64,000 nt of DNA from a bacterium (lineage in GTDB: Bacteria > Hinthialibacterota > Hinthialibacteria > H5-UNCL2). Location of the stretch: assembly GCA_015075175.1 (NCBI GenBank), contig JABTUV010000006.1, forward strand, positions 62,001 through 126,000. The letters are read 5' to 3'. Below the pieces are notes generated by a model. It saw only the letters and a program-made list of their open reading frames with translations. It ran no database searches and was not told the DNA's origin. Shown here piece after piece: positions 7,325 through 63,568 of the stretch. Position 1 is the first letter of the stretch. Each line of letters begins with the position of its first letter. The position numbers were made by a program, and so were the translations under genes.

Positions 7325-10211
7325 GTAACCGTCCGGTGAAGTGCATCTTCCCCGGCTGGGCGGATCTTGTCAGGATGGGCGCCACGGAGGTGGAAACCCA
7401 TGGCACGAGCAGGCAAGAACGCAGAATCCTGGCCACCGGCGAGCCGGCAGAAGGCCAGGCGGAGCCTAAGAGGGGCGTGAAGCGCGCTGGCGGCGTCTCA
7501 GCCGTCAGTGGAAGCCAGCGGCTGACGCAACGGAGTTCGAGCGAGCAACAGAAGGTTTCCTGGTCCCTGTGTTGGCGGCGGTGTGAATGGCGCGTCGCAC
7601 CGCGAACGTTTCACCGCATCCCATCCCAATCCAGTGGGCCGCGCGCAAGCACGCTGGCGCACGGCCGCGCCTGGCAGTACAGGAGGCCGCGCCGTCCGCC
7701 GCGGCGAACAAGCGCAAGAGGACCGTCGGGAAAGCGGAACGAGCGAGGCGGAGGAGGCGCACATCCTACCCGGCCCTGCCTGGGCAAGGCACACAGACAG
7801 AAAATCCTTCATCCCGGTGCAGTTGATCGGCCTCTGCGTTCTCCGCGGCCCCTTGCCCTCCCGTGGTCCAAGTCCCCGGTAGCGCTGGAGGTGCTGCTCG
7901 CCTCGGGGCGCTGTATCCGCATTCACGGGGACTGCCAGAGCCCCGCCGCCGCCCTCTGGCAGAAACCGATCGCCGTCCTGAGGCGTCCCCATGTTGAGTC
8001 GGAGAGTGCCGGGTGCCGCCGCCCAGCGTGCGCATCTATCAGCACCGCGCCTAACGACATGCGGCGCGGTTTCGACGGTCTGGCCTGTCGGCGCGTGACG
8101 TGCCGCAACAGGATCCTCCCGGCCACCTCTTCGTGTTTGGCAACAAGCGCGCGACCGCGTCAAATCCCTACATGGATCGTCCGGCTTTGGCCTCTGCGCA
8201 ACCGCATCGAAAAGGGCCGCCCATTTCCGACGGCGCGACCGCCTCCGTGCAGCCGACGCCGCCGAGTTAGCGCTGCTCCGGGTTAATCCAATTGCAACAC
8301 GCAGTACGCCGCCCCCCTTCGTCCCTCAATCTCACGTCATCGCCTCCGCATGATTCAACCGTAACTGCACGCCGCAATCACACATCGCCGTCACGCAAAA
8401 ATCATCGCAGCAGAACTTTTGCGAGACTTTTCCCGCTCGTGCGTTTTGTAAATGACCATGCGATTCGATCTGAACAACCACCCTCAAGACCCGGCGCTGT
8501 TGCAGCAGATGATCCTCGATCTGGTTGACGCAGCCTGCGCGAGAAGGATCAGCGCATCGAGATGCCGCCTCGCTCGCACCTGCTGGCGCTGCTGCAGCGC
8601 CCGGTTCGGGCGCAAGTCGGAGCAGGAACCCTGGAGCAACTGCTGTCTGCCTTCGCAGAGGCCATGCGCGACGGAGAGGTGGAACCAACCGCAGGCAGAG
8701 GCCGCGACGGAAGCGGAAGCCATCAAACAGGACAAACTGGCGAAGTCTTCCGGCAACGGGCACGGTCGTAATCCGCTGCCCGAAAGCCCTGCCGCGCGAG
8801 CGGGTGGAGTATGCGCTGCCCGAAGAGGCATGTGGTGCCAGGAGTGCGCGCGCCGCTGGAGCGCATACGGCGTTTTATTTAAGAAGTGACGCGGCAGCTG
8901 GAGTACGTCCCGCCTCCTTCATCGCGCGCGAGCACGTGCGGGCCGGCATGCCGCAGGCGCCGCCAGGGCAACGTGGTGGTCAGCGCCATGCCGCAGCCGA
9001 TTGATTGAGGGTCTGCCTGGTCCGGGTCCTGGCGGCACGTGTTGGTCAGGGCCAAGGCGCCAGGTGATTATCTGCTGCCGTTGATCGCCAGGAGGCGATC
9101 GCGCAACGGTATCGGCATCGAGCTGTCGCAGGGATCATGAGCGACTGGTCAGGCCGGCGCGCAGCGCTGGCCGCCGCATGACGTGATGCGACGAGAAGCG
9201 CCGCGCAGGAAGATCAACACGGACGACCCACCGGTCCCCGTGCAAGAGCTGGAACCAGCAAGACGCGCCAGGGGCGGCTGTGGGGTGTACGTGGGCGACG
9301 GATTTGAGCATGAGTACATCGGTGTTTGACTCACGCCCAACCGAAAACGGACGGCTGATGAAGCCTTGCATGGCTACCGGGCCACCCGGCGGATGCGCAT
9401 ACGGTTACGACGAGAAGAGATCGAATACCGAGCGGGGAGATCGTTGAGGGATGCTGGTGATGCGATGCGCCGGAAGTTCTATGAGGGCGCGGACAGCGAC
9501 GGGAGCGGGCGCTCGTGGCGCTGGCGACATCGGCCGCCCTACCATGCGGAAAAGAAAGGGGACGTGAAGATGGCTGTCCCCTGCGGATCTCGCGCGTTAC
9601 GCCGACAGGAGAGCGCCGATCCTCCGACCTGCATGCGCCTGGCCGAAAGAGCAGGCGCAGTGGTGCTGCCGCGGAGTCCGATGGGCGAGACCCGGCACGC
9701 GCTGGGTCACGGCGGCGCTCGGGCGCCACCTGGAGGACGGGGACCTGAGATCGACAACAACGCGGCGGAACGCCTGCGGCGGGTGGCGCTGGACGAAAAT
9801 TAGTTGTTTGCGGGCAGTGATGAAGGTGCCGGCGGCGAGCGGCGATCATCGTCTCAGGCGGCCTTATCGATCGCCTGCCAGCAACATGGAGTGGAACCTT
9901 CGCTGGCCTACCTGCGCGACGTGCTGGGCCGCAATCGGCGCACTTGCAAAGCCGCATTGAAGAAGCTGCTGCCGATGCCATGTGCTGGGAGCCTGCGCCG
10001 CCACGGCCCTGTCGCGGCGCATCTGGCTCCAACCCATCGACGGTGACCATCGACGGCTGACCGCGACGCCAGGACTTTTGCGCCTGCCCTTTCCTTCAAC
10101 GATTCCGAATCTTCAACCTGACAGGTCTCGACGCAATTGGCAGCGCACTGCTTCGTTACCGACCATTCCGGCGCCCCTGCCTTCCCCAGGATGTATTTCA
10201 TGGACGGTTAC
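7325..10211 (+). mobile_element. IS66-family element, copy 1 (indel-ridden)
   Basis: Begins GTAACCGTCCGGTGAAGTGC and ends with the inverted complement (ACGGTTAC at 10204-10211). Gene order is that of IS66: tnpA (about 7390-8000; C-terminal LEVLLASGRCIRIHGD), tnpB (about 8000-8285; MRRGFDGLA), tnpC (about 8452-10045). All three are broken by many small indels in a pattern different from copy 2 at 15293-18122, so sequencing error is more likely than decay. The left flank is the tRNA-Gly fragment, the right flank a CRISPR repeat (CTGATGTC); the flanks do not match, so there is no target duplication and the element is chimeric or mis-joined. Confidence 0.85.
8452..10045 (+). pseudogene. tnpC: IS66 transposase tnpC, frameshifted (copy 1)
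   Basis: DDE transposase of IS66. Recognisable pieces in successive frames: start MTMRFDL and leucine-zipper-like region, zinc-binding segment (CQEC near 8840), INTDDPPVPVQELEPA around the first catalytic region, HARRKFYE-equivalent, and the terminal EIDNNAAERLRRVALDE. Reading frame changes many times within 1.6 kb. Not functional as sequenced; true state is unclear because the indels look like read errors. Confidence 0.8.
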
Positions 10212-13200
10212 CTGATGTCGGCACCTGCGCTGCGTATTACGTCTGCCAGAGTGCGGCGCGGAGATGTCCGTCGATCAGGCGTCGTGACCGATGCGGCGAC
10301 CGAAAATCACTTACCCTCGAAAGAGTTTGAGGTCCGTCGATCAGGGTTGGCAACTGATGTCGGCACCCCCGCAGCAGTGCCCGACGCAGAGGCGGCGCGA
10401 GCGTCGTCCGTCGATCAGGTTGGTACCGATGTCGGCACCTTCGCCTGGCGCTCAGGGGGCCGATAGTGAACGATACCGCAGCTGCCCTTTGTCCGTCGCC
10501 GCTGGTTGACAGTACCGATGTCGGCAGGTACCTCGTCGTCGCTGGAGTTCGAATGCGTCAAGAATGGTGTCCGTCGATCAGCTGATGGTTCGGCACCGAT
10601 GTCGGCACCGCTCCTCTGGCTGCAGTGCCACGCGGACCGCGATGCGTCCGTCGATCAGGGCGGTGACGACGGCTGATGTCGGCACCTGCTGGTGGACGAG
10701 CGCGCTGCGATTGTTGCGGCGCGCGCGACGGACCGTCCGTCGATCATGGTTGGTCGATGGTCGGCAACCGGCGCAATCCACGTGATTTCCGCTCGCGTCA
10801 GCATCCATCCAGCCGGGTGTCCGTCGATCAGGTTGGTACCGATGTCGGCACCGCGCGCCGAAGGAACCTGAAAGGCCGCCGAGGGTGTCCGTCGATCAGG
10901 CTGGTAGTGGCGTCGATGTCGGCACCGTAGACGGCGCGGATTTGCTCGGGCGCCAGTCGTGCGTCGATCAGGTTGGGTACCGATATCGGCACCGGAGGCG
11001 GACCCAGGCCATGTATTGATTTTGAGTCGACAGCGTGTCCGTCGATCAGGTTGGTACCGATGTCGGCACCTCTTATTAGCGGGTTATCGCCGTATCGATA
11101 CACGTGTCCGTCGATCAGGTTGGCCGAATGTTGAAAACCGATGTTCCAGCGCGGCGGATTGAGGTTGCGTCGAACAGGTAGAGGTCCGTCGATCAGGTTG
11201 GTACCGATGTCGCACTTGGTGGAATTGCCGTGGCAGCGCGTGACGGCGTGACGCGAGTGTCCGTCGATCAGGTTGGCACCGTAGTCTATACTGCGAAACG
11301 CGCCTTGCCGGAAGGTGACGGCGTGACGCGATCATCGTCCGTCGATCAGTTCTGGTACCGATGTCGGCACCTCTGAATCAGCGGTCGCACAAGGTCTATA
11401 CACGAGCGTCCGTCGATCAGGTTGGTACCGATGTCATAACCCGGCAAGTCTCCTTCCTTCCCTTTATGCAGGTCGTGGCGGCGGTGTCCGTCGATCAGGT
11501 GGTACCGATGTCGGCACCATCACAACGGCGATACTGCCGGCGCAGAGGCCGTCCATCGTGTCCGTCGATCAGGGTTGGTACCGATGTCGCGGCTGGACCT
11601 TCAGGCCTCGCGGCAGGCCCCTTCACCTGCTCCGTGTCCGTCGATCAGGTTGGTACCGATGTCGGCGCGCCTGCGCGGAAACTGCTGGCATGAATACACC
11701 GCGCGTGTCCGTCGATCAGGCTGGTACCGATGTCGGCATCGTGAGAACGCGATCAGGGTTCGACCTGACGGCGCGATTTGAAACGGTGTCCGTCGATCAG
11801 GTTGGTACCGATGTCGGCACCACAGTCCCTGCGAGCGAATTGGCGACGCTGGAGGTGTCCGCGTCGATCAGCTGGTACCGAATGCTGCGCCTTAGTCCTC
11901 CTTCCTCAACCCATTATGCCCGCGGCGGTGTCCGTTCGATCAGGTTGGTGTTCATTCGCGCGCGGCCAGCTGATTCTTCCAATCGTCGTCTGTTTTGTGT
12001 CCGTCGATCTGCCGATTGGTACTGATGTCGGCACCATCGCGTGAATCGTGGCCAATCGACGCAAACCCGTGTCCGTCGATCAGGCTGGTACCGATGTACG
12101 CGGCACCCGGCAGGCAGCCGAAGGCCAAACGCGCATCTTCTTGGTGCCGTCGATCGATCAGGTTGGTACTGATGTCATACGTAAACTTCCCTCAGGGGAG
12201 GCTTTGGCGGTTTCCAGGGCTGTGTCCGTCGATCAGGTTGGTACCGATGTCACCGGTTAGCAACCGACCGCGCCCGCGATTTCGGTCGCTATAACCTTAA
12301 AGTCGTCCGTTTTAGTCGATCAGTTCCACCAAATTTTGATCGGCACCGGTTTGACGACGCCGAAATGATTGACCGAACAGCGTCCGTTCGATCAGGTTGG
12401 TACCGATGTCGGCACCCGCGCCCGCGCCGGAAGCCGCGCGCGCGCAGAGTCGCCGTGTCGATCAAATTGGTACCGATGTCGGACCTAGCGGTTTGGTCTC
12501 GCTGATCCGATCATCGTGTCCGTCGATCAGGGGTTGGTACTGATGTCGGCACTCGGGCTGGCCATATTTCCGCCGGTCACGCTGCTCCCGTGTCCGTCGA
12601 TCAGGTTGGTACCGATGTCGGCACCATGCGATATGATATCGCCCTGCCGGTCGCCGTCCTGTGTCCGTCGATCAGGTTGGTACCGATGTCGGCACCGAAG
12701 CGCGACTGTTCGCTCGTACGCAATCGCACAATGTGTCCGTCGATCAGGTTGGTACCGATGTCGGCACCCGACCACGAGCACGATCCAGGTCGGGGCGGGC
12801 GGGTGTCCGTCGATCAGGTTGGTACCGATGTCGGCACCGGAGCGGTCAGCGTCGTTGCGTCTGTCCATTGCGGTGTCCGTCGATCAGGTTGGTACCGATG
12901 TCGGCACCGAACGCAAAGTTCAATACACGCGCGAAGCTCGCAGTGTCCGTCGATCAGGTTGGTACCGATGTCGGCACCGGGGCCGGAGTGCGCCGACTGC
13001 CACCTGCCTCTCGTGTCCGTCGATCAGGTTGGTACCGATGTCGGCACCATCGCGCGCCGCCTTCGCCAGCACAGTGCCCAGGGTGTCCGTCGATCAGGTT
13101 GGTACCGATGTCGGCACCGGTGGAATTGCCGGCAGGGTGACGGCGTGACGCGAGTGTCCGTCGATCAGGTTGGTACCGATGTCGGCACCTCTGACTGAAG

Positions 13201-13606
13201 CGGTCGCACAAGGTCTATACACGAGTGTCCGTCGATCAGGTTGGTACCGATGTCGGCACCGGGGCCGGAGTGCGCCGACTGCCACCTGCCTCTCGTGTCC
13301 GTCGATCAGGTTGGTACCGATGTCGGCACCATCGCGCGCCGCCTTCGCCAGCACAGTGCCCAGGGTGTCCGTCGATCAGGTTGGTACCGATGTCGGCACC
13401 ATCGCGCGCCGCTCTGCCAGCAACGCCCAGGGTGTCCGTCGATCAGGTTGGTACCGATGTCGGCACCAAAGAGACTTTTGAAGGAGGTTGGCTGATAGGA
13501 GATGTCCGTCGATCAGGTTGGTACCGATGTCGGCACCGCAGAGGGAATCTTCCCTGCCCGCCCCAGCCGGGCGTCCGTCGATCGTTTGTACTGATGCTGG
13601 CAACCC
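10212..13606 (-). CRISPR. CRISPR array 1 (about 45 repeats; left part error-rich)
   Basis: Same 36-nt repeat as array 2, spacers about 33-36 nt. From 10212 to about 12600 both repeats and spacers carry many small indels yet follow the spacer order of array 2 from 18131 to about 20580 (for example the spacer containing CGGGTTATCGCCG). From about 12600 to 13540 repeats are perfect and the spacers after the shared GAAGCGCGACTGTTCG spacer are mostly different. A block of two spacers (GGGGCCGGAGTGCG, ATCGCGCGCCGCCTTC) occurs twice around copies of two spacers also found in array 2. The last unit at 13571 is degenerate. Strand is assigned from the tracrRNA logic at array 2. Confidence 0.93.
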
Positions 13607-15262
13607 CATGGGCGATAAGACCAGCGGCGTACCTATATAGTCCTGTTGCGGGCCAGAATCGATCCAGTGGCAAGGCCTGTCTTGCAGAGGCAAAATGCCA
13701 GGGCGGCTGAAGCGCGAGGCAAGAGCTTTGAAGTGCTACATTGCAACAGCACTCAACCGCGAAGTCAATAAAGGTGGTCCGGCAGTACCAGAGAAGTACG
13801 AGCGGATCGCCACGCGCTGGCCGCCAACCCGAGTTGCTGCGCCTGGCGCACCGCGACTGGCGGCAAGTTGTCCCTCCCGGCGGGGACGCCGCGCAGCCCA
13901 CAGCTGCGAGGAGATTTTGCGCGCTGCTGGTGATGTTTGTCGAGCAGTTCGTCCTACCGGGCGGCAGTGAGTCGCATCGATACCAGCGAGTTTCTGCGCG
14001 GCTCGTCGGGCCAGACGCGCCCGATGATGGACTACACCTTCCTCTGTGGCAGGATGGGCACGCATCTCGGCCCGACGCTGGAGGCCATGAACCAGGCGCT
14101 GGCGAGCCCGCGGTGAACCAGGAGAAGATCAGCGGAGGAAGTTGCGCGGACCTGACCGCTCACAGCGACCAACATCCACTTCTGACCGACGCCCTAGAGG
14201 ACAGTTACCGCGCTGGCGAGAGTCCGAGCGGGCGCAAAAGGACCGCTGGTTTGGGCTGGCGCATCGCTACCCACGCGTGAGAGCGGGCGGCCGTTACACC
14301 TTCCGGCCCGCAACGGCAAGCCCAGCCGCCCACCCAGCGGCGGTCGCGCGCCATCGCGCGCTGATTGAACGCGAGCGCTGGGTCGCGGGCATCGGGCGCG
14401 AAGTCGCCGAACTGCTGGCCAACACGGGCCGGCGTGCAGGGACACGGGCGCTGATTCTGGCGGAAGCGACCCGCGAGGAGTTACAACCATCTGCCGACGG
14501 TGGAGCGGATCATCGACCGCCGAGCGGCGGTGCTGTTGGGGAGCAGGTCCCAACGACGAGAAGGCGTTCAGTCTGTCCTGAGCCGCACACCGAGTTGTTG
14601 ATGCGTTGCAAAAGCCAGGAAACCGATCGAGCTCGCCAGCTAGGTGCTGCCGCGAGCGGGGAGACTTCCATCGCCAACAACACCAGGTGCCGGAGAGGAC
14701 CCGACGACAGGGTTTCGACGCCGGCGCTGGAGTCGCAACCGCAACCCGTTTGGGAGTCTGCCTGAGGTGCTGGCGGCGACATGGGGGTCTGACTGCGCTC
14801 GCATTTCATCGAGCCAAATGGTGAAATCAATTGACCGTCCCTGATCGCCAACCAGCGCCGCACCAAGGAGGAGACGGCACGAGAGAGTGAGCCGGATCCG
14901 CGCGGACAGCGATCCCGGCGGGTCGGAGGCCCCGATCCCAGTGTTAAACGGGCCCACAGCTCGAATGGTGCCTTTTGGTGGATTTCCGAACCGCCGCCAG
15001 CGTGGGCTGCGCGGCGTTGTGCCACAACCTGGTGCGCTGGACGCGACTGTAGCTGCCGCGCCGGCGCCAGGGCGGGCTGAAAAGGACTGCGAAAGGTTGA
15101 GGGTTGAGGTTCTGCCCGAACCTGGGCATCGCCGTCCTGATCCCAGTACGAAATGTTACCTGACAGGCCTCTTGCCGTCTCTGCGAGCGATGCTCGAAGC
15201 GTCAACCGTTCGCCGCGCTCCACATCGCCGCCTAAAAGCCCTTCCGCAACAGAAACTATATA
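13607..15262 (+). pseudogene. Frameshifted transposase relic, probably ISNCY/IS1202-like
   Basis: No intact gene. On the plus strand pieces in shifting frames resemble a DDE transposase: EPHTELLMR followed by a Lys-rich segment near 14580, then FGSLPEVLAA near 14750, then RTKEETARE and VGGPDPS with RAHSSNGAFW near 14860-14990. The order (EPHTE..., PEVLAAD..., basic RTKEE... segment) fits ISNCY-type enzymes. Inverted repeats were not identified. It lies between the leader-side end of array 1 and the IS66-split repeat of array 2. Family assignment is tentative. Confidence 0.45.
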
Positions 15263-15292
15263 GTGTCCGTCGATCAGGTTGGTACCGATGTC
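15263..15292 (-). repeat. Left 30 nt of a CRISPR repeat split by IS66
   Basis: Thirty bases identical to the array repeat, ending CCGATGTC directly before the IS66 terminus. Joined to GGCACC at 18131-18136 it rebuilds exactly one 36-nt repeat. No further repeats are seen to its left, so it was the leader-distal end of array 2. Confidence 0.92.
15285..15292. repeat. IS66 target-site duplication, left copy (CCGATGTC)
   Basis: Eight-bp direct repeat abutting GTAACC at the IS66 left end; the identical copy is at 18123-18130. Eight bp is the usual IS66 duplication length. Confidence 0.92.
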
Positions 15293-15949
15293 GTAACCGT
15301 CCGTGAAGTGCATCTTCTTGCCTGAGGAGGGTGGATCGTGATGGGCGCATGGAGGTGGGAACCCATGGCACGAACAGGCAGGAACGCAGAACCTGGCCAC
15401 CGGCGAGCCGGGCAGAAGCGCGCGCGGAGTCCTGTGGCGGCGTGGAAGCGGATTGGCGGCGTCTGAACCGTGAGTGGAAGCCAGCGGCCTGACACAGTCC
15501 GAGTTTTGCTGGCGGCAGGCGGTTCCGCCTCGACCTTCTGCTGGTGGCGGCTGAACTGGCGCGTCGCGAGCGCCAACGAGTCCCCGCATCGCATCCCAGC
15601 GTCGACCGCGCGCAAGAGCAGCGACGAGCGGTGCGTTGTGGGGATGGAGGAAAAGTGCAGCGGAGAAGGGGCGACTGGCGGTGGCCGCATCCAATCAAAC
15701 GCGCATGCGGCCCGGGCAGGAGGTTCCGTCCCATCTGCCCTGCCCGGGCAAGCGCACACAGACAGAAAATCCTTCATCCTGGGTGCAGTTGATTGGCCTC
15801 TGTTCTCCGCGGCCCCATGCCCTCCGGTGGTCGGTTCCCGCCGCCTGGAGGTCGCCCGCCTCGGGCGCTGTATCCGCATTCACGGGGACTCTGCCGCCGC
15901 CCTCTTGCAGAAACTGATCGCCGTCTTGAGGCGTCCCCACGTTGAGTCT

Positions 15950-16230
15950 GCCGCCCAGCGTGCGCATCTATTCAGGCACCGCGCCGACCGACATGCGGCG
16001 CGGCGTCGACGGTCTGCTGTTCCGCGCGTGACGCTGCAACAGGGATCTCCGGCCACCTCTGTTTGGCAACAAGCGCGCGGACCGCGTCAAAATCCTTTAC
16101 TGGATCGTCTACTTCTTGCCCTGGTACAAGCGCATCGAAAAGGGCTGCTTCCATTTCCCCGACGGCGCGACCGCCTCCGTGTGCCGACGCTACGCCGAGC
16201 GTGGCGCTGCCTTGAAGAATTCACACTGGT
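15950..16230 (+). pseudogene. tnpB: IS66 accessory protein TnpB, frameshifted (copy 2)
   Basis: Typical TnpB of about 115 residues. Recognisable parts are the N-terminal Arg-rich region (DMRRGVDGL around 15990), a GNKRA-type segment near 16070 and the C-terminal YKRIEKGCFHFPDG. Frames change at least twice. It lies between tnpA and tnpC in the standard IS66 order. Confidence 0.7.
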
Positions 16231-16385
16231 GCACGCAGTACGCCGCCCCCCGCTTTGTCCCTCAATCTCACGTCATCGCTCCGCATGATTCAACTGTAAC
16301 CGCACGCCGCAATCACACATCGCTGTCCGGCAAAAATCATCGGCAGAACTTTTGCGAGACTTTTTCCCGCTCGTGCGTTTTGTAA

Positions 16386-17960
16386 ATGACCATGCGATTC
16401 GATCTGGAACAACCCACCCTAAGACCCGGCGCTGTTGCAGCAGATGATCCTCGATCTGCTGACGCAGCCTCGCGCGAGAAGCTGGATCAGCGCATCGAGA
16501 GCTTCCTCGCACCTGTTGGCGCTGCTGCAGCGCTCCGGTTCGGGCGCAAGTCGGAGCAGGGCCCCTGGAGCAACAACTGTTCGTTTTCTGCAGAGGCCAT
16601 GCGTGCGCGACGGAGAGGTGGAAATCCAATCCGCAGGCAGAGGCCGGCTGACGGAAGCGGAAGCCATCAAACAGGACAAACCGGCGAAGTCTTCGGCAAC
16701 GGCAGCCGTGGTCGCAATCCGCTGCCCGAAAGCCCTGCTCGCCGCGCGAGCGGGTGGAGCATGCGCCGCCCGAAGAGGCATGCGCGCCAGGAGGCGCGCC
16801 GCTGGAGCGCATGGGCGAAGAAGTGACGCGGCAGTGGAGTACGTCCCCGCCTCCCTTCATCGTGCGCGAGCACGTGCTGGCGGTCAAGTATGCTCGCAGG
16901 CGCTGCCAGGGCAACGTGGTGGGTTAGTGCATGCGGGCGCAGCCGATTGAGAAGGGTCGGCCGGTCCGGGTCTCCTGGCGCACGTGTTGGTGTGGGCAAG
17001 ACTGGGATTATCTGCTGCGTGCACCGCCAGGGAGGCGATCATGCAACGGTATGGCATCGAGTTGTCGCGAGGGACCATGAGCGATTGCGTAAGGGCCGGC
17101 GCTGCCGTCGCCGCTGTGATGACGTGATGCGACGAGTGCTGCAAGGCAGGAAGATCAACACGGACGATCACCCGTCCCGTGCAAGAGCTGGAACCAGCAA
17201 GAGACGCGCCAGGGGCGGCTGTGGGTGTACGTGGGCGACGGAGAGCATGAGACACGGTGTTTGACTTCACGCCCAACCGAAAACGGACGGGCCGATGAAG
17301 CTTCTTGCAGGCCATTACTGGGCTACCTGCAGGCGGATGCGTATACGCTACGACGAGTTGTACCGAAATTATGAGATCGTTGAGGTGCTGGGGCGCATGC
17401 GCGCCGGAGCTCTATGAGGCGCAGGACAGCGACTGGGAGCGGGTATGGTGGCGCTGGCGTATATCGGCCGCCCTCTACGGGCGGGAACAGCGGCGCTGGA
17501 AGATGACGGCTGTCCCCGCGGATCTCTGCGCGTTACGCCGACAGGAGAGCGGGCCGATCCTTCCGATGCTGCATGCCTGGCTGGTGAAAGAGCAGGCGTG
17601 GCGCTGCGATGGCGGAGTCCGATGGGCGAGGCCATCGGCTAGCGCGCTGGGTCAATGGCGGGCGCCTGGGCGCTACCTGGAGGACGGGGACCTGAGATCG
17701 ACAACAACGCGGCGGAAACAGCGCCTGCGGCAGGTGGCGCTTGACGGAAAACGTGGTTGGCTGGCGGGCAGTGATGAAGGTGGGCGGCGAGCGGCGATCA
17801 TCTATACCATGACCGCCAGTTGCCAGCAACATGGAGTGGAACCCTGGCCTACCTGCGCGACGTGGGCCGCACTCTCTGCACTTGCAAAGCCGCATTGAAG
17901 AGTTTTGTTGCCGCTGGGATTTCGCGCCGTCACGGGCCTGTCGCGGCGCACCGGCCCAAC
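16386..17960 (+). pseudogene. tnpC: IS66 transposase tnpC, frameshifted (copy 2)
   Basis: About 520 residues expected. Starts MTMRFDLEQP; later pieces include KINTDDHPSRARAGTS-type catalytic region near 17150, FDFTPNRK near 17260, YGREQRRWKM near 17480 and QHGVEPW near 17835. These match tnpC remnants at 28.5 kb and 61.5 kb in this window. Many single-base indels prevent a continuous reading frame. Confidence 0.8.
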
Positions 17961-18122
17961 CCATCGACGGGTGACCATCGACGGCTGACCGCGACGCCAG
18001 GACTTCTGCCTCCCTTTCTTCAACGATTCCGAATCTTCAACCTGACAGGCTTCCATGACGGCTGGCGCCACGACCGCTCCAGCCCCCTGCCTTCCCCAGG
18101 ATGTACTTCACCGGACGGTTAC

Positions 18123-18130
18123 CCGATGTC
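18123..18130. repeat. IS66 target-site duplication, right copy (CCGATGTC)
   Basis: Direct repeat of 15285-15292, directly after the terminal GGTTAC of IS66 copy 2. Confidence 0.92.
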
Positions 18131-21116
18131 GGCACCGCTACATACGTCTGCCAGGAGTGCGGCGCGGAGATGTGTCCGTCGATCAGGTTGGTACCGATGT
18201 CGGCACCGAAAAAATCACTTACCCTCGAAAAAAGAGCTTGAGTGTCCGTCGATCAGGTTGGTACCGATGTCGGCACCCCCCGCAGCAGTGCGAGGCAGAG
18301 GCGGCGCGAGCCGTGTCCGTCGATCAGGTTGGTACCGATGTCGGCACCTTCGCCTGGAAGCATGATAGTGAACGTGTCTTTGGTGTCCGTCGATCAGGTT
18401 GGTACCGATGTCGGCACCTTTCGCTGTCGCTGGAGTTTCTGCGTCAAGAATGGTGTCCGTCGATCAGGTTGGTACCGATGTCGGCACCGCTCCTCTTCGC
18501 TGCAGTCCACGCGGACCGCGATGTGTCCGTCGATCAGGTTGGTACCGATGTCGGCACCGCCGTGCGTGCCGCTTGCCGCGCGCGCGACGGAGTGTCCGTC
18601 GATCAGGTTGGTACCGATGTCGGCACCCAGAATTCACGTGCGTCAGCATCCATCCACTCGGGGTGTCCGTCGATCAGGTTGGTACCGATGTCGGCACCGA
18701 AATAGCGAACAACCTCCGAAAGGCCGCCGAGGGTGTCCGTCGATCAGGTTGGTACCGATGTCGGCACCGTAGACGGCGCGGATTTGCTCGGGCGCCAGAA
18801 ATCGTGTCCGTCGATCAGGTTGGTACCGATGTCGGCACCGGAGGCGGACCAGGCCGGTATTGTTTTTGAAATTGCGTGTCCGTCGATCAGGTTGGTACCG
18901 ATGTCGGCACCTCTTAATAGCGGGTTATCGCCGTTCTCGATACACGTGTCCGTCGATCAGGTTGGTACCGATGTCGGCACCCAGCGCGGCGGATTGAGGT
19001 TGCGTCGAACAGGTAGAGTGTCCGTCGATCAGGTTGGTACCGATGTCGGCACCGGTGGAATTGCCGGCAGGGTGACGGCGTGACGCGAGTGTCCGTCGAT
19101 CAGGTTGGTACCGATGTCGGCACCTCTGACTGAAGCGGTCGCACAAGGTCTATACACGAGTGTCCGTCGATCAGGTTGGTACCGATGTCGGCACCCTTAG
19201 TCTCCTTCCTTCCTTTATGCCTCGTAAGGCGGTGTCCGTCGATCAGGTTGGTACCGATGTCGGCACCATCACAACGGCGACATTGCCGGCGCTCGTCCAT
19301 CGTGTCCGTCGATCAGGTTGGTACCGATGTCGGCACCTTCAGTGCCTCGCGGCAGGCCCCCTTCACCTGCTCCGTGTCCGTCGATCAGGTTGGTACCGAT
19401 GTCGGCACCCTCTGCGGGAAACTGCTGGCATGAATACACTGCTCCGGTGTCCGTCGATCAGTTGGTACCGATGTCGGCACCGTGAGAACGCAGAGCTCGA
19501 GTTGCGCGTCGGAAACGGTGTCCGTCGATCAGGTTGGTACCGATGTCGGCACCACAGTCCCTGAGCGAATCAAGGAGACGCCGGAGGTGTCCGTCGATCA
19601 GGTTGGTACCGATGTCGGCACCTTAGTCTCCTTCCTTCCTTTATGCCTCGTAAGGCGGTGTCCGTCGATCAGGTTGGTACCGATGTCGGCACCCACAGAA
19701 GCGATTCTTCCAATCGTCGTCTGTTTTGTGTCCGTCGATCAGGTTGGTACCGATGTCGGCACCATCGCGTGACCTGCGGCCAATCGACGCAAACCTGTGT
19801 CCGTCGATCAGGTTGGTACCGATGTCGGCACCCTTGCAGCGAAGGCCAAACGCGCATCTTTCTTGGCGTGTCCGTCGATCAGGTTGGTACCGATGTCGGC
19901 ACCCCCCTAGGGGGAGGCTTTTGACGGTTCCAGGGTTGTGTCCGTCGATCAGGTTGGTACCGATGTCGGCACCGACCGCGCCCGCGATTTCGGTCGCTAT
20001 AACCTTAAAGTGTCCGTCGATCAGGTTGGTACCGATGTCGGCACCGGCTTGACGACGCCGAAATGCCCCTGACCGAACAGTGTCCGTCGATCAGGTTGGT
20101 ACCGATGTCGGCACCCGCGTACGTAGCCGGAAGCCGCGCGCGCGCAGAGTGTCCGTCGATCAGGTTGGTACCGATGTCGGCACCGACAATCGAGTGGGCG
20201 GAGATGTCGGGGCCAGCGTCCATTCGATCAGGTTGGTACTGATGTCGGCACCATCGGCGTTTCCGTCCTGATTGCACGCTGTAGGTGTCCGTCGATCAGG
20301 TTGGTACCGATGTCGGCACCTGAAGCGGTTTGGTCTCGCCGATCCGATCATCGTGTGTCCGTCGATCAGGTTGGTACCGATGTCGGCACCGGGGTTGCGC
20401 TACATATTTCCCGGTCACGCTAGCTCCCGTGTCGTCGTCGATCAGGTTGGTACCGATGCAGCGCACCATGCCGCCATATGATATCGTTCTGCCGGTCGCC
20501 GTCCTGTGTCCGTCGATCAGGTTGGTACCGATGTCGGCACCGAAGCGCGACTGTTCGCTCGTACGCAATCGCACAATGTGTCCGTCGATCAGGTTGGTAC
20601 CGATGTCGGCACCTCATGTCTACGGGATCAGGAGATGACATTGAACATGGTGTCCGTCGATCAGGTTGGTACCGATGTCGGCACCTTTACTCACCTCGAA
20701 AAGTTTGTGCCCGAGTAAAGGTGTCCGTCGATCAGGTTGGTACCGATGTCGGCACCTCTGCCGCCGCGATTACCTTCGCCACTTCCGTTGCGGTGTCCGT
20801 CGATCAGGTTGGTACCGATGTCGGCACCGTGGCACCCTTGAGGTGACGGGTGTGCCTACCTTGTGTCCGTCGATCAGGTTGGTACCGATGTCGGCACCGG
20901 ATTCGGCGCGGTTGAAGGTGTAAAAGAGACTGCGTGTCCGTCGATCAGGTTGGTACCGATGTCGGCACCGTGTACGTTCCATCAGTTTTGACCGCATCCA
21001 GTGTCCGTCGATCAGGTTGGTACTGATGCCTAGCTGGGCACCCCTGCTCGATTGGGCGAGTCGGCAAAAGCCAGAACTACGTGTCCGTCGATCAGGTTGG
21101 TACCGATGTCGGCACC
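18131..21116 (-). CRISPR. CRISPR array 2, type V-B, about 42 repeats
   Basis: 36-nt repeat; in the inferred crRNA direction (minus) it starts GGTGCCGACATCGG and ends CTGATCGACGGACAC. Spacers are 32-37 nt. Almost all repeats are identical; variant units occur near 19448, 20218, 20430 and 21001, the last with an over-long spacer. The leader-proximal repeat is 21081-21116, next to the tracrRNA and cas2. The leader-distal end is interrupted by IS66 at 18122. One spacer (TCTCCTTCCTTCCTTTATGC) appears twice, near 19200 and 19625. The repeat end ACAC and the CTGA segment resemble Cas12b repeats. Long open frames inside the array are an artefact of a 36-nt period. Confidence 0.97.
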
Positions 21117-21307
21117 CGCCGCCCTTCCAACCCCTTGCTGGCACTGCGTTTTCGGACCGCTGTGCGAGCATTTGGAAAATCACCCTGCGACGGCACATTG
21201 CTACGCAGCTTCCTGGTCCCTTTATTTCGGGCGAATTTTGGCGGGGTTCGAGCATCCCCTGGACCCCCCGCCACCACCTCCGCGCTCGCGCAGGCTGTTA
21301 AGGAGTC
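21117..21307 (-). promoter_or_regulatory. Probable CRISPR leader
   Basis: About 190 bp between the tracrRNA and the first repeat, on the leader side of array 2. No gene on either strand. It contains an AT-rich stretch (CAAAATTCGCCCGAAATAAA in minus sense, near 21221-21240) and ATTTTCCAAATG near 21175. Leader status rests on position beside the adaptation genes; the array side facing it carries perfect repeats. Confidence 0.6.
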
Positions 21308-21404
21308 CACTCCGTCGTCGGAACTAAACTGATCGACTCCACGGTGCCAAGCCCATTGAAGGGGACGACACGTGCCGTGGCATTTTCGCCTCCTGTAGAG
21401 GCAA
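21308..21404 (-). ncRNA. Predicted Cas12b tracrRNA
   Basis: About 97 nt on the cas strand, starting 7 nt after a strong promoter. Order in RNA sense: 5' segment CTCTACAGGAGGCGAAAA, resembling the 5' end of the Alicyclobacillus Cas12b tracrRNA (recalled, GTCTAGAGGACAG); stem CCACGG (21375-21380); GTGTC (21367-21371); an inner hairpin CCC-CTTCAAT-GGG; stem return CCGTGG (21339-21344); then GTCGATCAG (21329-21337). GTCGATCAG is exactly complementary to CTGATCGAC of the repeat, and GTGTC to its terminal GACAC, the two repeat:anti-repeat duplexes known in Cas12b. Complementarity continues imperfectly to 21312. A small hairpin GGAGT-GG-ACTCC follows (21302-21313). The 3' end is not certain. Confidence 0.82.
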
Positions 21405-21410
21405 TGCAAG

Positions 21411-21439
21411 AATATACCATTCGCCGGGTATAATGTCAA
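21411..21439 (-). promoter_or_regulatory. Sigma70-like promoter for the tracrRNA
   Basis: Minus strand: TTGACA (21434-21439), 17-bp spacer, TATATT (21411-21416); expected start near 21404. The -35 box overlaps the cas2 stop codon, so the promoter is packed directly behind the cas operon. Confidence 0.82.
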
Positions 21440-21726
21440 ACGACAACGATGCCGCTGTCCTGCTCGGGAAGAGGTTGGCCGATAACCGTGGCCGCTTCAC
21501 GCGCCTCCTTCTCGTTAGGACCAAGGTCCAGAATCATCACCTGATCCTCCTTCTGATTCATCTGCTCCTCGAGGTCGGTTTGCAATCGCACGCGGTCGAT
21601 ATCTTTGAGCGCACAAAAGAAGACCGAAAACTGCCAGGCCTCGCCATACCCTTTGAGCACCTTGTGGACGCGTCGCAATCTTTTCGGGTCTCTGATGTCG
21701 TAACAAACCAGGTAGCATCGACGCAT
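21436..21726 (-). CDS. cas2: CRISPR-associated Cas2
   Basis: Small ferredoxin-fold subunit of the Cas1-Cas2 spacer integrase; 96 residues from the chosen start. MRRCYLVCYDIRDPKRLRRV holds the conserved beta1 Asp, followed by GYGEAWQFSVFFCAL, the usual beta2 pattern. The start at 21726 is preferred over an upstream in-frame Met at 21741 because GGAGG lies 5 nt before it. It begins 17 bp after the end of the cas4-cas1 gene and its stop overlaps the tracrRNA promoter. This is the only intact cas gene in the locus. Confidence 0.95.
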   Translation of the reverse strand: MRRCYLVCYDIRDPKRLRRVHKVLKGYGEAWQFSVFFCALKDIDRVRLQTDLEEQMNQKEDQVMILDLGPNEKEAREAATVIGQPLPEQDSGIVVV

Positions 21727-21742
21727 AATAACCTCCGGCAAC

Positions 21743-23441
21743 TCAGCGCGTGGTCAGGAACGCCAAAGAAGGAATATCTCCCGTGAGCCAGGCCGCAACA
21801 TATCGCGTGATGCAAAACGATCATTCGCCGGTAGCTCAAACGATACTCAAAGACCGGATGGGTGACCTCCGTATCCATTCTTCTGCCAAGAGCACTGAAA
21901 AAACTCCGTCTTCCGGCGTCTGTGAGCGAACATCCGGATGCGGTGCGAAGAAAATGCCCGTCGGTCAATTCACCGCGATTGTTCTACGGATCACGACGGA
22001 ATCCGCGATGAGCGGCCGAAACGGGCTCTAAGATCGACCGCAAACGCGGGACGCCCCGGCCTCGATACGTGGAATCCGCCGATAGAAGGCTCCAACCTCG
22101 CGAGGCGCAACGCCGCCACGCACTCGTGGGTCAACATCGAATATGCCAGCGACAGACAGGAGTTGATGGGGTCCGGCGGAGGTCTACGTTTTCGCCATTG
22201 CATCGAATTCCACCGACATACCCTAAGCATTAGAAAAATGCCCAAAGTAAATAGCCGCCGCCTGACCCTCATGCCCGCGCACCGCATCCACTGAATCCGC
22301 CTGCGCCGCGTTCTTGGCCTCCTTCGCCAGGTCGGCGGCGACGCCGGCAGGCAGCGAACCATATCAGGAGAAGGAGTGTTCGCTGATCTACAATTTGGCT
22401 GACACGAGAGCCTGCGCCAGCTCGAAGCATGCTCCGTGCGGTCGAGTTTATGAATCTGTGCCTTCGAACCTCGGCGCTGACCGAATCGAGCGGATCGATC
22501 ATGGCCACCAGTCGTCCCGCTGGTGAAAGAAACGCGATAGAGTGTTCATGCGGAAGCGGCACAAAACTGCCTGGGTGGTGATTTTGCACCGAGCCCAGCA
22601 GCGAGAGGCTTTCGAGGTTGGCCAGCGGTACGGTCTTCGCCACAGCGCCATTCTTGTCGGTGATCCTCAATTCCATCCCGCGAACACCGATCTTCACGCC
22701 GTCTTGCTGGGCCACCACGTGAATGCCGTCATCGCGCGGCGGCCAGATTTTTCTCGGTGTCAGTTCGTCGGTTGGAGATTGGGCACGCTGGTAGTTGACC
22801 TCGTCCGGCAGGCATATTGGTTGCAGGGAGCATCTTGGACAGCGTGAGTCATTGACGAGCGGCAGAGGCCGTGAGCCTTCCGCGCATTGTTTCGCCCTTT
22901 CCAGGGTCAGCAAGGCTTCGGCCTTGAGCGCATCATCGACGGGAATCCTGAGACGAAGTTTTTCCCCGGCGTAATAAATGATCGCTTCCCTAACCGTGTA
23001 CCCCGCATCCTCCAGAAGAATAGCCTGCAGGCCCACTTGGATACGGTCCGTGGGCCACGCCTCCGGATGTGAAAGCGGGGTTTGCTCCATTTCACCGCAA
23101 TCGTCGGAGGCGGAAGGCCCCATGGAAATGTGCTTTGGACGCCCCTTGCGGTACTCCACCGGCACGGCGGTCCGCCCTGAGATTTCCGCCAAGTCCAAGG
23201 TCGCGGTAAGGCCGAGCGACTCGCTCGTCAAAGCCAGACTTCGAACGACCTTTGGCCGTTCGAGATCATCCTCACCTGTGTCCGCCGTTTCCAGAGCGGT
23301 GCTGGGTTTATCCACGCGTCGATGGACAGCCACCCCTTTCTCCGTGTCACTGCTGGGAACAAAGATGCCTTCCACCTGCATGCGTAAAAGACGCGGGCAA
23401 TAGGCATGTTCAAGGCCTACGTTCCGGGCCAGGGCTTTCAT
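21743..23441 (-). CDS. cas4-cas1: Cas4-Cas1 fusion (adaptation nuclease + integrase), frameshifted
   Basis: About 565 residues once frames are joined. Residues 1 to about 190 are Cas4: first Cys in HAYCPRLL, PVEYRKG, the motif DRIQVGLQAILLEDAGY, and the Cys cluster CPRCSLQPICLPDE for an Fe-S site. Cas1 follows with GVKIGVRGMELRITDKNG. Its catalytic part is split by at least two frameshifts: NQRTLLL region near 22380, then PPPDPINSCLSLAYSMLTHE with its Glu and IGGFHVSRPGRPA with its His near 22140-22060, then the C-terminus from about 21968 (FRTASGCSLTDAGRRSFF) to a stop at 21743. Cas4-Cas1 fusions are typical of type V-B. The frameshifts resemble those elsewhere in the window and may be sequence errors. 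Confidence 0.88.
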
Positions 23442-23471: not shown

Positions 23472-26400
23472 TCATCCTATCCTTGGACGCCCACGGTGCG
23501 GTTGCTTGTCGCGGTCTTCCATCTGTTCCTCCAAGACACGGATAACCCGGCATTGCACCTCGTTCTGATAGGCGGCATATTCTTTCCACTCTCTGATTGC
23601 GATGGATTCGAGCGGGGATGACGATATATCGCTCCAGAGATTAACGATTTCCTTGGATTTGCTGGCGCCATTATTTCCGCGCTTCTTTTATCTTTCGCGG
23701 CATCACCACTCTGCGGTCGCGGGGGTTGCCGCAGCGGCTGATCTGGATTCACCACCGCGCTGCCATCGACCTTGTCCTTTATGGGCCTAAAGCTGACTGG
23801 ATCGCAGGGTACATACCACCACTTGCCGGGCCAGTCCGGTCGGTAGCGCGTAGGCCGATGTTGGCGGCGGCGTTCAGGTCGGCTTGAGCTTCCTTGGCGG
23901 CCGGCGATTCTGATCGGCCGCTCAACAAATGCCTCGCCACTTCTTGAGAGGAACACGGATGACCCTGGCCTTCTCCCAATCGGCTCTGGATTTGCTCCTT
24001 CCATTTTGCGCTCAGGTCGCAGATGAAACGTTCGCGTGCGTCGCCCTTGCCTTCGGCCTGTTTCTTCTCGGCCTGCGCGATCCGTTTCCGCCAGAAGGGC
24101 GAGTCGCATGAACTCCTTGACCGGCACATCCTGACGGCGGATGCCGGAGCCTGTGTGGAGTCCTGGCGGGACGTGTAGGCCGCCGAGACTTCGCGGAGGT
24201 GCAGGCCGTGGAGTTGGCAGGCCTCGGACAGGTACTTCTTGACCTTCGAGGACGACCACGTCATGAGTTGCCGGTTTTCCCGCCGGGTGCGAGTTTCTCC
24301 GGCCGGTAGTGGGTGAGGATTCTCGATGACGATGGCATGGCACGGTTCGTCCACCGCGGCCGCTCGGGCGCTTTGGGTCCCTGCCTCCCAGGGGCCGCCC
24401 TCATCCGTCCGATACCGAGCGCCGCCTCGACAACGGCTGGCAGGTTGCTTGACGCGCTGCTCGCGTAGGTGTTCCAGTGCGTCCAGGGCGCTCTGCCCGA
24501 ACTGTTCCTTGGTCTCAGCCCTTGCGCGCGCCGGTCCGGGCGGAAGGAAGAATCCACCTGAACTTTGCGGCGGAACTCGGTCAACAAAGGCGCTCAGGCG
24601 GGGTGAGGAGAGTCCCGCCGACCTTGCGAATGGCCGGGCCATACTGGCGTGCTTTCCACGTGGGAGGACCCAATCCTTTGAACCAGCGCGGATAACGTTT
24701 TTGCAGCCACTTATCGTCGTCTTCCCATCGTTTCTTCCAGGCGTCATGGAGAGCCATGCGAAGGGTCTCGTCCCGGGCCAGCGCTTCGCCACATCGTAGA
24801 GTTTTCTCGATTCTCTTTGCTTCTTCTGCGCTCTGAACTGAGATTCCTCGCCGATTTTCAGGGACTTTGTATCCGGACAACTTGGCGACATGGTCATCCC
24901 ACAGCTGCCTTTGCGGCGTGGTCCCGCCATCCACGGAGGATGTCAATCCATACCAGGAGCAGAGCATCTTGGATAACTCGATGTGCTTTTCCGCGCAGTC
25001 GCATTCTGTTCGCTGAGCGATCTTCGCCCGGTGAAGTAGTATCTGCGGTCACCGGGCGTGGGTTTGTATTCCGCTGTCATGGCGAAGGCGATTCGCGCCC
25101 GGTCGCCGTGGCGCTTGAGCGCAAGACGCATGGTGCGGGCGGCTGAGGACATCAGTGCCTGTCGACGGAGAGCGACGGTTTGCGGACCTCGCCTCGTCTG
25201 CGTCCGTACTGTCAGCTTACGACCCGGCTTCGCTTGCCGGTTTCCATCCGTGGTCACGCAGCGCCTCGAGCCTCGTTCTTTGCTTGCCAGGACTGACCCC
25301 AGCCGGCCTTGACCAATCGGTCGATGATCGGCGCGGTTCGGCCCAGTTCCGCCTCCAATTGATTAACCTTCAAGACCTCCTCGTTGGACGCTTCGCGAAC
25401 CCCTTCCTCCTCGCCCTGGAGCTTGATGAGAAATTGGCGGTCCAGCCGCGCCCAAGGAGCGGGATGCGGCGTGCCATCCGGCAATGTGTCCGCGCCGATG
25501 CGGCGATAGATGGTGGTTCCCTCGACCACGACTTGATTGCCCTTCTTCTGCTTTGTCGCTTTTCTCTTGAGATGCAGGTGAAGATCGCTCTCCCTCGGCG
25601 CTTCATGCCCGGCGGCCTGGCACGCTTCCTTGACCTGCTCAGTGTTTACCGCTTCCCAAACCGCGCACGCTGCGGCGTAGCGGTGGCCGAGGTCGACGGA
25701 AAGCACTCGCAGGCCGGGTAGACGGGAGAGGATGAGCCGACCTTGGCCTTTCCGAGATTTGTTCGAATCGGCATGGGGCCAGTATTGAGGGTCGATTCTA
25801 AGCTGATTCTGTTCGGCAAATTCACACCACGGACCCTGCGGCTGTAGCCTTGCAGAGAAAGTCACCAACCAACGGACGCGGTCCATCATACCGGACATCC
25901 GGCGCTCACGTTCCTGGTAGGACAAATTATTGTTGTCCCTCACTTTGGCGATGGCTTCCAACTGCTGCCTGGGGGCCTGCAACCTGCCATTCCAGTCTGC
26001 TTGATCAAAGAGCCCAGCGATCTTCACATCATCATTCTTGGTTACATTTGAAGCGGCTCGTCCCAATCTGTCCGCGCGGGTGACCTCGGAGGCTCCATCC
26101 TTTTGACCATCTTGTCCGAGAGCCAGATCGCGCGCCAGCCTCTTGGACTGCCAGCACAACGGAACTGGTTTCATCTCGCTCCCGGTCCAAAGCGTCAGGC
26201 AAAGCGCCTGAGAATTGGGGAAGTCGCCTTCAGCTTTGTCTTTCTGTCGTTTTGTGGGATTGGCCTGACGGTGCATTTCGAAAACGATGTCCCAGCGGGA
26301 TTTCCCGAAATCGCAGAAGACGGGATGTAAAAGCGCGTCGGGGTGGCGGTACGCCGGCACCTTGAAGTGCCGTTTCTTGAATTCCGCTTCGTCGGCAAGA

Positions 26401-27950
26401 GCGTAGTCAATCAGCGGCTGAGGGTCGGGATCTTTCGCGGCATCGCCGTCCTTGTGCCAAACGGATACGGCGTCGTCTTCAGCGAGGGCCTCGAATAGCT
26501 GGATGTCGCCGAACTTATCGATCTCGGGGTCATCCTGCAAGGCACGGGCGGCAGCAACACGGTCTTCCTCTGTTCGGCAGTCAGCTTTTGACCACGCCTT
26601 GACAACATCCTTCCACCCATCAACAGCACGCTTCCTGATTCTATAGCCATCTATCGCACCGGACGACTCGGCGCGATCTTTGCAGAATTTATCCAGCCAA
26701 GCTTTTGCAGTTTGAGGAATGATGGATGCTTTCTTCGCGTCTTCCTCGAATTTCCGACGCTCTGCCTCGGCACGCTTGATCCACGTGTGGGCCAGCGAAA
26801 CACGACGGGCCGCGTGGTCAAGTATGACGGCGAATTCGGAATGCCTAGCCGAGCCTCCATCCTGCAAGTAGGTGAACCCGCAAACAGACTCCACCTCCTT
26901 CAAGATTGCATCCGCATAAGGTCGTCGTCCCTTTGACCCGGTATTTTGATTGCACTTTTGGGCATCTTGGGTCGCTTTTGTTTTTAGGCTCTCAAGGTCT
27001 TCTTGAGTAACGGTGGTGTTGGTGGCGAGCTTTTTGAGAAGGTTGCGCGTTGCGCTCTTGTAACCGGGTCCGCTGATCAGACCAAGCACGCCTTGTAGGT
27101 CGTTCGATGCAGGGTTGAATTCATTGAGGTCGTCTGCGAGGCTGGCGATGGCATCCGTGCCCCTCTCGTTCGGTGAGTGTGCGCCAGCCCACGCCGCGAT
27201 CTTCTTATAGACTTCGGCCATGCGGCTGAAGTCCGCTCCTTTGCCGGTGCCGAACCGGCTGCTGAGCCATTGTCCCGCCTTCTGGACGAGGTCCTTCGCT
27301 TTGTCCTCTTGCTCTGTCTCTGAAGATTCATCTTCGGAGCCTTTCACTGGGGCCAGATAGGCATCACGGCTTCCGAAGAAGCGTTCCAGCATGTCCCACG
27401 CTTCCTCGCGTGTGAGTGAGCAAGCTACTGACTTGACCGCATCATCAAACGCCTTACTCCTATTCACCCAAACGGCGTCGTCCCGGATGGCCGCACTCAG
27501 GGAAGCCGAGCAATTATTCTTCCACTCGTTAATCTCGTTATCCGCAAGGCCCCTGCCCTTGAGGATTTCTTCAAGCGCCGCGACAACCATGGTGTTGCGA
27601 TCTTCAGCTGCGTCCGTACCAGATGCGATGATGTATTGCTGTGGTGCCCCATGCTTCGATTCCACCGAAAGCCACGACAGGGCCAACAGAACACGCCGCG
27701 CCTTGCGCTCCTCGTCGGTCGGATCACGGTCAGGCTTCCCCTTTCCAACTTTGATCTTGGTATCCACCAAAGTGTGATCCAGTCCGCCGCGCAGGGTGAG
27801 CAGCCAGTCGCCGAACGCTTTGGCTCCCTTATTGACTGCCTCGTGGGTCTGCCAGAGCGCCTTGCGCCATGAATTGTCTCTCAGGTCAGCTCCACGGAGC
27901 CGAAGTGTGTAGGCTCGCTGGGTGACGGGTGGTTTAGCGTGTTGTGGCAT
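23472..27950 (-). CDS. cas12b: Cas12b (C2c1) effector nuclease, frameshifted in C-terminal half
   Basis: RNA-guided DNA nuclease of type V-B, about 1,490 residues when frames are joined, at the large end for Cas12b. The start is ATG 27950 (AGAGGA 5 nt upstream), giving MPQHAKPPVTQRAYTLRLRG. The first frame is open for about 900 residues and holds RuvC-I (PGLRVLSVDLGHRYAAA, catalytic Asp). It ends at 25254; the rest lies in frames from 25257, 24967 and 24930. These contain DALEHLREQRVKQ, RuvC-II (CHAIVIEN, Glu; then RRENRQLMTWSSSKVKKYL), YTSRQDS, and RuvC-III (QADLNAAANIGLRA, Asp). After another shift come DWPGKWWYVPCDPV and KEIVNLWSDIS, to a stop at 23472. All three catalytic acids are present. 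The net length is a multiple of three. Confidence 0.9.
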
Positions 27951-28149
27951 CGTTATCCTCTTTCGATTCATTGATCAAACATACCAGCTCTTCCCGAGCT
28001 TACTGAAGAATCAGAACCGCGCGGGTGGCGTCCCGATTGTGGGAGAAAAAGTGTAGGGTATTCCTCGGGGCGACAACACCATCGGACTCCTTTCGAGCCG
28101 CCTTGTCAAGGCTCTTAGTTTCTAATTGCAGCTTCTGACGCCGGCGGTC

Positions 28150-61419: not shown

Positions 61420-62170
61420 GTAACCGTCCGGTGAAGTACATCCTGGGAAGGCAGGGGCTGAGCGGTCGTGGCGCCAGCCGTCATGGAAGCCTGTCAGGTT
61501 GAAGATTCGGAATCGTTGAAGGAAAAGGAGGCAGAAGGAGTCCCGTCGTCGAGTTCAGCCGTCGATCTGTCCCGCCGCGACAGGAACATGCGGCGTTTTC
61601 GGTTTCAGTGCCCCGGCAAGAGCTCTTCAATGCGGCTTTGCAAGTGAAGGTATGCGGCCCAGCACGTCGCGCAGGTAGGTGAAGGGTTCCACTCCATGTT
61701 GCTGGCAACTGGCGATCATGGTGTAGAGGATCGCCGCTCGCCGCCCACCTTCATCACTGCCTGCGAACAACCAATTTTTTTCCGTCCAAGCGCCACCGCC
61801 GCAAGGCGCGTTCCGCCGCGTTGTTGTCGATCTCCAGGTCCCCGTCCTCCAGGTAACGCGTCAAGGCCGTCCATTGTCCCAGCGCATAACCAATGGCCTC
61901 GCCCATCGGACTCCGCGGCAGCACCACTTTGCGCCTGCTCTTTCAGCCAGGCATGCAAGTCGGAGGAGGATCGGCGCGCTCTCCTGTTGCCGCAGCGCGC
62001 AGAGATCCGCAGGGACAGCCCATCTTCACGTCCCCGCTTTTCCACTTGGTAGAGGCGGCCGATATACGCCAGCGCCACCAGCGCCCGCTCCCGGTCGCTG
62101 TCCTGCGCCTCATAGAACTTCCGGCGCGCATGCGCGCCAGCACCCCCTCGACGATCTCGCCGCTCTGTCC
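61420..62170 (-). mobile_element. IS66 remnant: tnpC C-terminal third and right terminus
   Basis: Terminus GTAACCGTCCGGTGAAGTAC at 61420, then minus-strand tnpC sequence: AHARRKFYEAQDSDRERALV, ALAYIGRLYQVEKRGREDGL, RQQRGGT-type segment and ALGRKKIGCSQAVMK. Two or more frameshifts. The rest of the element is replaced by the IS3 element at 62171. Confidence 0.85.
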
Positions 62171-63530: not shown

Positions 63531-63568
63531 TAACATTCCCACTGGTAAAGTTTACAGGGGGCACGCCC

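Follow-up and report, generated by a model that had tools for sequence, protein, structure and literature searches.

The question raised by this locus is what is encoded by the short stretch of DNA between cas2 and a CRISPR array, and on which strand. We analyzed the window (the whole 64,000-nt stretch of DNA, from which all coordinates below are taken unless otherwise indicated). An earlier interpretation of the same letters, made without database searches (the sequence-only reading), had called this stretch a type V-B tracrRNA with its own strong promoter. We found that the gene context, homology, covariation and the published layout of Cas12b guides agree with one another and support that call, and we conclude that the 97-base stretch at 21308-21404, read on the minus strand from a predicted start near 21404, is almost certainly the tracrRNA of a Cas12b immune system. 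We put the probability of the joint reading, in which a dedicated promoter drives a minus-strand tracrRNA that forms two duplexes with the repeat and has Cas12b as its partner, at about 0.95.

Gene content of the locus

The stretch adjoins a set of cas genes on the minus strand. The product of cas2 (21436-21741) matches Pfam PF09827 (E 4e-18) and PADLOC Cas2g (E 3e-29), and is 76% identical to the Cas2 of a related locus, L020, from Candidatus Hydrogenedentes bacterium ADurb.Bin170. It is preceded by a cas4-cas1 fusion (21746-23441), which matches NCBIfam cas4g_cas1g and PADLOC Cas1g, and by cas12b (23490-27971, encoding ~1480 aa), which matches NF033949 with 690 + 188 bits. The intact 905-aa N-terminal frame of cas12b alone scored 690.6 bits against this NCBIfam model, for which the cut-off is 150. 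The closest solved structure to the window Cas12b is PDB 9KLN (1496 aa, E 0, 63% identity in the alignment used), and all three RuvC acidic motifs (SVDLGHR, IEN and ADLNAAANIG) are kept in the frames of the window. With a Cas12b that carries the RuvC acidic triad and an adjoining Cas4-Cas1 fusion and Cas2, the locus is, as judged from its genes, a type V-B CRISPR-Cas locus.

The CRISPR repeats are 36 nt long and, read on the minus strand, have the sequence GGTGCCGACATCGGTACCAACCTGATCGACGGACAC. The leader-proximal array (18172-21116, minus strand) has spacers mostly of 33-36 nt, and the distal part of the same array (10404-15298, minus strand) is interrupted by IS-like insertions. The same repeat recurs in a second array, which starts at 63567, has its crRNA strand on the plus strand, and runs past the end of the window at 64000 (G000:C46:125588-129872 in the genome). 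This second array has no spacers in common with the first. A whole-genome scan with the first covariance model of the tracrRNA (window included) gave a copy number of one, and no tracrRNA was found beside the second array. IS-like copies lie in inverted orientation at 17373-18122 and 61420-62158, which suggests that the two arrays may have arisen from one through an IS-mediated inversion. Within the first array (10404-21116), five spacers are present in duplicate, and the region at 7325-13330 (IS and array) resembles that at 15293-21116, a pattern as after segmental duplication or an assembly artefact. There were no phage protospacers found for the proximal array, and searches of viral contigs (four queries) and plasmids gave no matches.

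A family of homologous RNAs accompanies related cas12b genes

We scanned 84,980 species genomes with a query alignment that comprised the 9KLN protein, the window protein and two other Cas12b N-termini, and identified 29 Cas12b loci; the same genome scan with the window protein alone gave no matches. In 18 of these loci we found CRISPR repeats, most of them ending in GGACAC or CTGACAC. A homologous RNA, with the core GTGTCTTCCCCTTCAATGGGCTTGGCAC or a variant of it, was found in 16 of the 29, upstream of the array and on the strand of cas12b. The distance from this RNA to the first repeat was 250-340 nt in 15 of the 16 loci, with a single exception at 2480 nt (L041); in the window it is 255 nt. 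The RNA of the window is 92% identical to that of locus L038 and 80% identical to that of L020, in which the core is GTGTCTTCCCCTTCAATGGGCGTGGCAC.

The sequence-only reading had suggested a check against covariance models. Model R1 scored the window RNA at 116 bits, and model R3, for which the 16 relatives were used and the window was left out, scored it at 105.1 bits (E 1.3e-27), a test that is not fully independent because L038 is close to the window. Model R3 matched neither the distant L019 locus nor the surroundings of the second array. In Rfam, no curated family came near its gathering score for the window tracrRNA.

A conserved promoter motif precedes the RNA

The proposed promoter consists of a -35 box, TTGACA (21434-21439, minus strand), that overlaps the cas2 stop codon TGA (21438-21436), and a -10 box, TATATT (21411-21416, minus strand), with a 17-nt spacer between them. 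These boxes match the consensus at 11 of 12 positions, and 50 dinucleotide shuffles of the region contained a mean of 0.0 such sites. The motif occurs in the region on the minus strand only. Across loci, we scanned for promoters anchored on their position relative to GTGTC, a motif within the RNA. All 17 loci (17 of 17; chance expectation, 0.09 loci) had TTGnnn-N16-18-TAnnnT 65-71 nt ahead of GTGTC, with TTGnnn identically placed. In the window, as in L020 and L038, the cas2 stop codon falls within the -35 box, and the sequences of L021, L026, L031 and L033 read alike. In the remaining loci the tracrRNA lies 380-650 nt after cas12b. In two loci, L022 and L029, a palindrome, CCACGG-N5-CCGTGG, fills the spacer between the -35 and -10 boxes of the tracrRNA promoter, and could be an operator.

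No intrinsic terminator was found at the 3' end of the tracrRNA. A hairpin, CCT(C/G)CGC-GAGC-GCGGAGG, lies 3' of the anti-repeat in the window (~21270-21297) and in L038 (10778-10797). These two closest loci have it in common, and it could be a marker of the leader or of the 3' end of the tracrRNA.

Predicted fold of the RNA and its pairing with the repeat

Every element named in the sequence-only reading was present on the minus strand between cas2 and the array, at the positions given there; a 5' hairpin and the continuation of the anti-repeat to ~21312 had been overlooked. Read from its 5' end, the predicted RNA has the hairpin GCCTC-TACAG-GAGGC (21388-21402), the 5' arm of an outer stem, CCACGG (21375-21380), the short anti-repeat GTGTC (21367-21371), an inner hairpin, CCC-TTCAAT-GGG (21352-21363), the 3' arm of the outer stem, CCGTGG (21339-21344), and the long anti-repeat (21312-21337), all on the minus strand. 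The long anti-repeat (26 nt, 81% complementary to the repeat) has GTCGATCAG as its core (21329-21337) and an imperfect continuation. GTGTC and GTCGATCAG are indeed the exact complements of GACAC and CTGATCGAC in the minus-strand repeat.

Comparison of the 17 sequences indicated that these helices have been maintained. Standard pairs were found in 93.1% of pair cells, as compared to 74.6 ± 1.6% after shuffling and 37-54% when the arms were slid against each other. There were 40 cells with changes on both sides (11.3 ± 2.8 shuffled), and the covariation score was 0.59 (0.215 shuffled). The 5' hairpin covaries best of all helices in the tracrRNA: all four of its counted core pairs have changed on both sides, with 100% of cells paired across the 17 loci. 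Compensatory changes were also found in three pairs of the outer stem, whose two arms covary, and in two of the three pairs of the inner hairpin. The outer stem encloses both the short anti-repeat and the inner hairpin.

The long anti-repeat covaries with the repeats across the 17 loci. For 25 anti-repeat:repeat pairs, 75.5% of cells were paired, versus 63.8 ± 1.5% for shuffled and 23-43% for slid controls, and there were 71 double-change cells versus 35.2 ± 4.6 shuffled. The shuffle comparisons are inflated by shared ancestry; the slid controls retain that ancestry, yet clearly fail. Because the alignment had been fitted to the structure, we added an alignment-free test, and in 15 loci the cognate outer-stem arms and anti-repeat:repeat duplexes were jointly stabler than in all 20,000 permutations. 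The long anti-repeat pairs with most of the repeat, bulge included; in roughly half of the loci or more, columns 8-9 of the long duplex are left unpaired, as in a bulge. In the window, the distal part of the anti-repeat pairs more weakly with its own repeat than with the repeats of several relatives.

The short anti-repeat, GTGTC, is predicted to pair with GACAC at the 3' end of the repeat and to form a pseudoknot. It is invariant in the 17 loci, and because the duplex is invariant it has no support from covariation. GTGTC also has an alternative partner, GGCAC, within the tracrRNA. This internal pairing keeps all five pairs in only 12 of the 17 loci, whereas pairing with the cognate repeat is complete (five of five) in all 17, and therefore the evidence for a selected switch is weak. 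It seems doubtful that the tracrRNA is a built-in switch that stays closed until the cognate repeat displaces the internal GTGTC:GGCAC pairing.

Direction of transcription and alternative readings

The sequence-only reading had taken the pairing with the repeat as settling the direction of the crRNA, an argument that fails, as complementarity is symmetrical. In co-folding, the minus-strand tracrRNA and minus-strand repeat gave a ddG of -15.0 kcal/mol; when the repeats were shuffled the value was -7.0 ± 3.2, and with the plus-strand repeat it was -5.4. Because a plus-strand transcript with the plus-strand repeat gave -16.2, which rivals this value, complementarity cannot give the direction, and choosing the strand by co-folding energy was rejected. 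This symmetry is what would favor a functional RNA on the plus strand, with the array read from the plus strand. The promoter, however, is on the minus strand only, cas12b, the tracrRNA and the array share one strand in the 16 relatives, and the published order of stem, short anti-repeat, hairpin, stem and long anti-repeat is visible only on the minus strand. We therefore consider the plus-strand alternative highly improbable; as read from the sequence, the crRNA direction is settled as minus by the promoter, by homology with its conserved strand and by the order of the locus. An anti-repeat is inherently repeat-like, and this one adjoins the array, so the stretch might instead be a degenerate terminal repeat or a leader element with chance hairpins and no RNA gene. 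Against this, the stretch lies antisense to the repeats, three of its helices have compensatory changes across 17 loci, and it comes with a conserved promoter and a model score of 105 bits. The covariation already contradicts this explanation, and we give it hardly any weight.

A more serious alternative to a functional minus-strand tracrRNA is that the RNA worked in an ancestor and that the locus is now a dead, decayed remnant. In the assembly, the first ~900 aa of Cas12b are intact and the frames for its C-terminal part and for Cas4-Cas1 are broken. A frameshift-aware alignment to L020 placed 25 apparent frameshifts in cas12b, all past approximately residue 900, and 11 in cas4-cas1. These ~36 frameshifts, together with the IS-like insertions in the array and the presence of two separated arrays, are what decay would predict. 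But the frameshifts are clustered at 21.8-25.3 kb, each amounts to 1-2 nt, in-frame stops are absent, and L020 is still matched at 62-66% identity. In addition, the essential gene rpoC of the same genome (G000:C45:354639-359557) is also split, by one frameshift near 357065 (rpoB is open). Because the shifts are of this kind, identity is kept and rpoC is likewise frame-broken, the affected ~3.5 kb is probably an unpolished stretch of assembly with sequencing errors rather than a product of decay. The tracrRNA, its promoter, cas2 and most repeats are intact, and the three RuvC motifs are kept, and we regard decay as unlikely. Because cas12b and cas4-cas1 are frame-broken in the assembly, the suggestion that the locus is potentially self-sufficient cannot be claimed. 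Open frames in the effector and adaptation genes bear on whether the locus can work and are not required for its assignment to type V-B.

Comparison with known Cas12b guides

In Cas12b systems, the duplex between crRNA and tracrRNA consists of a long repeat:anti-repeat (R/AR) stem, often bulged, and a short stem of 5-7 bp in a pseudoknot; in BhCas12b the long and short stems are 30 and 5 bp (PMC11246509). Compared by layout alone with the BhCas12b and BthCas12b tracrRNAs (PMC11246509), the window RNA likewise has a bulged long R/AR stem and a 5-bp short R/AR pseudoknot. The AapCas12b sgRNA, printed in PMC12649315 and PMC13203532, has the same elements in the same order (PMC12649315): 5' hairpin, outer stem, short anti-repeat, inner hairpin, stem return and long anti-repeat. 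The 5' hairpin motif CUAnAGG is CUAGAGG in the AapCas12b scaffold and CUACAGG in the window. The partner of the short anti-repeat is GGCAC in AapCas12b, in contrast to GACAC in the window, and overall similarity in sequence is weak, although it exceeds that of shuffled sequences (alignment scores of 4.5 and -5.0 ± 3.6, respectively).

The closest relative with a solved structure is the Cas12b of 9KLN, 9KLO, 9KLP and 9KLQ. Over the part compared, the Cas12b of L020 and the 9KLN sequence are identical. The L020 Cas12b belongs to the same clade as the window protein, with a protein 63% identical, a tracrRNA ~80% identical, the promoter in the same place and the same gene order (cas12b - cas4/cas1 - cas2 - tracrRNA - array); the 5' half of the repeat and the spacers differ. 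Our literature search found no paper on 9KLN, ChCas12b, Hydrogenedentes or Phycisphaerae Cas12b, or the tracrRNA core. The claim that the RNA is clearly different from known Cas12b tracrRNAs thus holds against the Bacillus and Alicyclobacillus kind, but not within its own clade (92% identity to L038, 80% to L020), and the motif of the 5' hairpin is common even with Aap.

More distant, tracrRNA-like RNAs were found in L045 (Planctomycetota S40-2) and in L019 and L048 (Lindowbacteria). By eye they have the same order of elements, and co-folding gave a long duplex with the repeat, but the clade models detect them marginally or not at all (15.9 bits for L045, no match for L019). In L045, the RNA contains GTGTGCC as well as CCTACAGG, the latter within the 5' hairpin, and the repeat ends in GGCAC as in Aap; by these sequence features, L045 bridges the Aap type and the type of the window clade. 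The plan of Cas12b tracrRNAs was already known, and the window RNA is a further member rather than a new kind. By sequence it is an ordinary member of its own clade of large Cas12b proteins, built on the standard plan, and not an outlier.

Proposed mechanism and implications

In the model that we propose, the sigma-70-type promoter at the end of cas2 would drive a minus-strand tracrRNA of ~97 nt or more. Its long anti-repeat (~21337-21312) would base-pair along most of the 36-nt repeat in the minus-strand pre-crRNA, and GTGTC, held within the CCACGG/CCGTGG stem, would pair with GACAC at the 3' end of the repeat, closing a pseudoknot beside the guide. The duplex would be trimmed by a host RNase, probably RNase III, and the tracrRNA:crRNA pair would be used by Cas12b for cutting DNA. 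The second array, at 63.6 kb, would have to depend on this one tracrRNA as well. What the sequence itself shows is the promoter motif, the fold, the two pairings with the repeat, covariation in the stems and in the long duplex, a Cas12b context and a family of homologues; transcription, processing, binding by Cas12b and cleavage we infer from known Cas12b systems.

With these findings, a clade whose Cas12b proteins are unusually large, from metagenome-assembled genomes labeled as Hydrogenedentes, Planctomycetota, Kiritimatiellae, Nitrospira, Myxococcales and Deltaproteobacteria, has a tracrRNA that is supported by covariation. The tracrRNA promoter appears to be conserved throughout, with the -35 box sitting on the cas2 stop codon wherever cas2 adjoins. 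Because Rfam has no such family, the covariance model could find tracrRNAs that annotation has missed, and the guide scaffold of each effector in the clade would be assignable straight from sequence.
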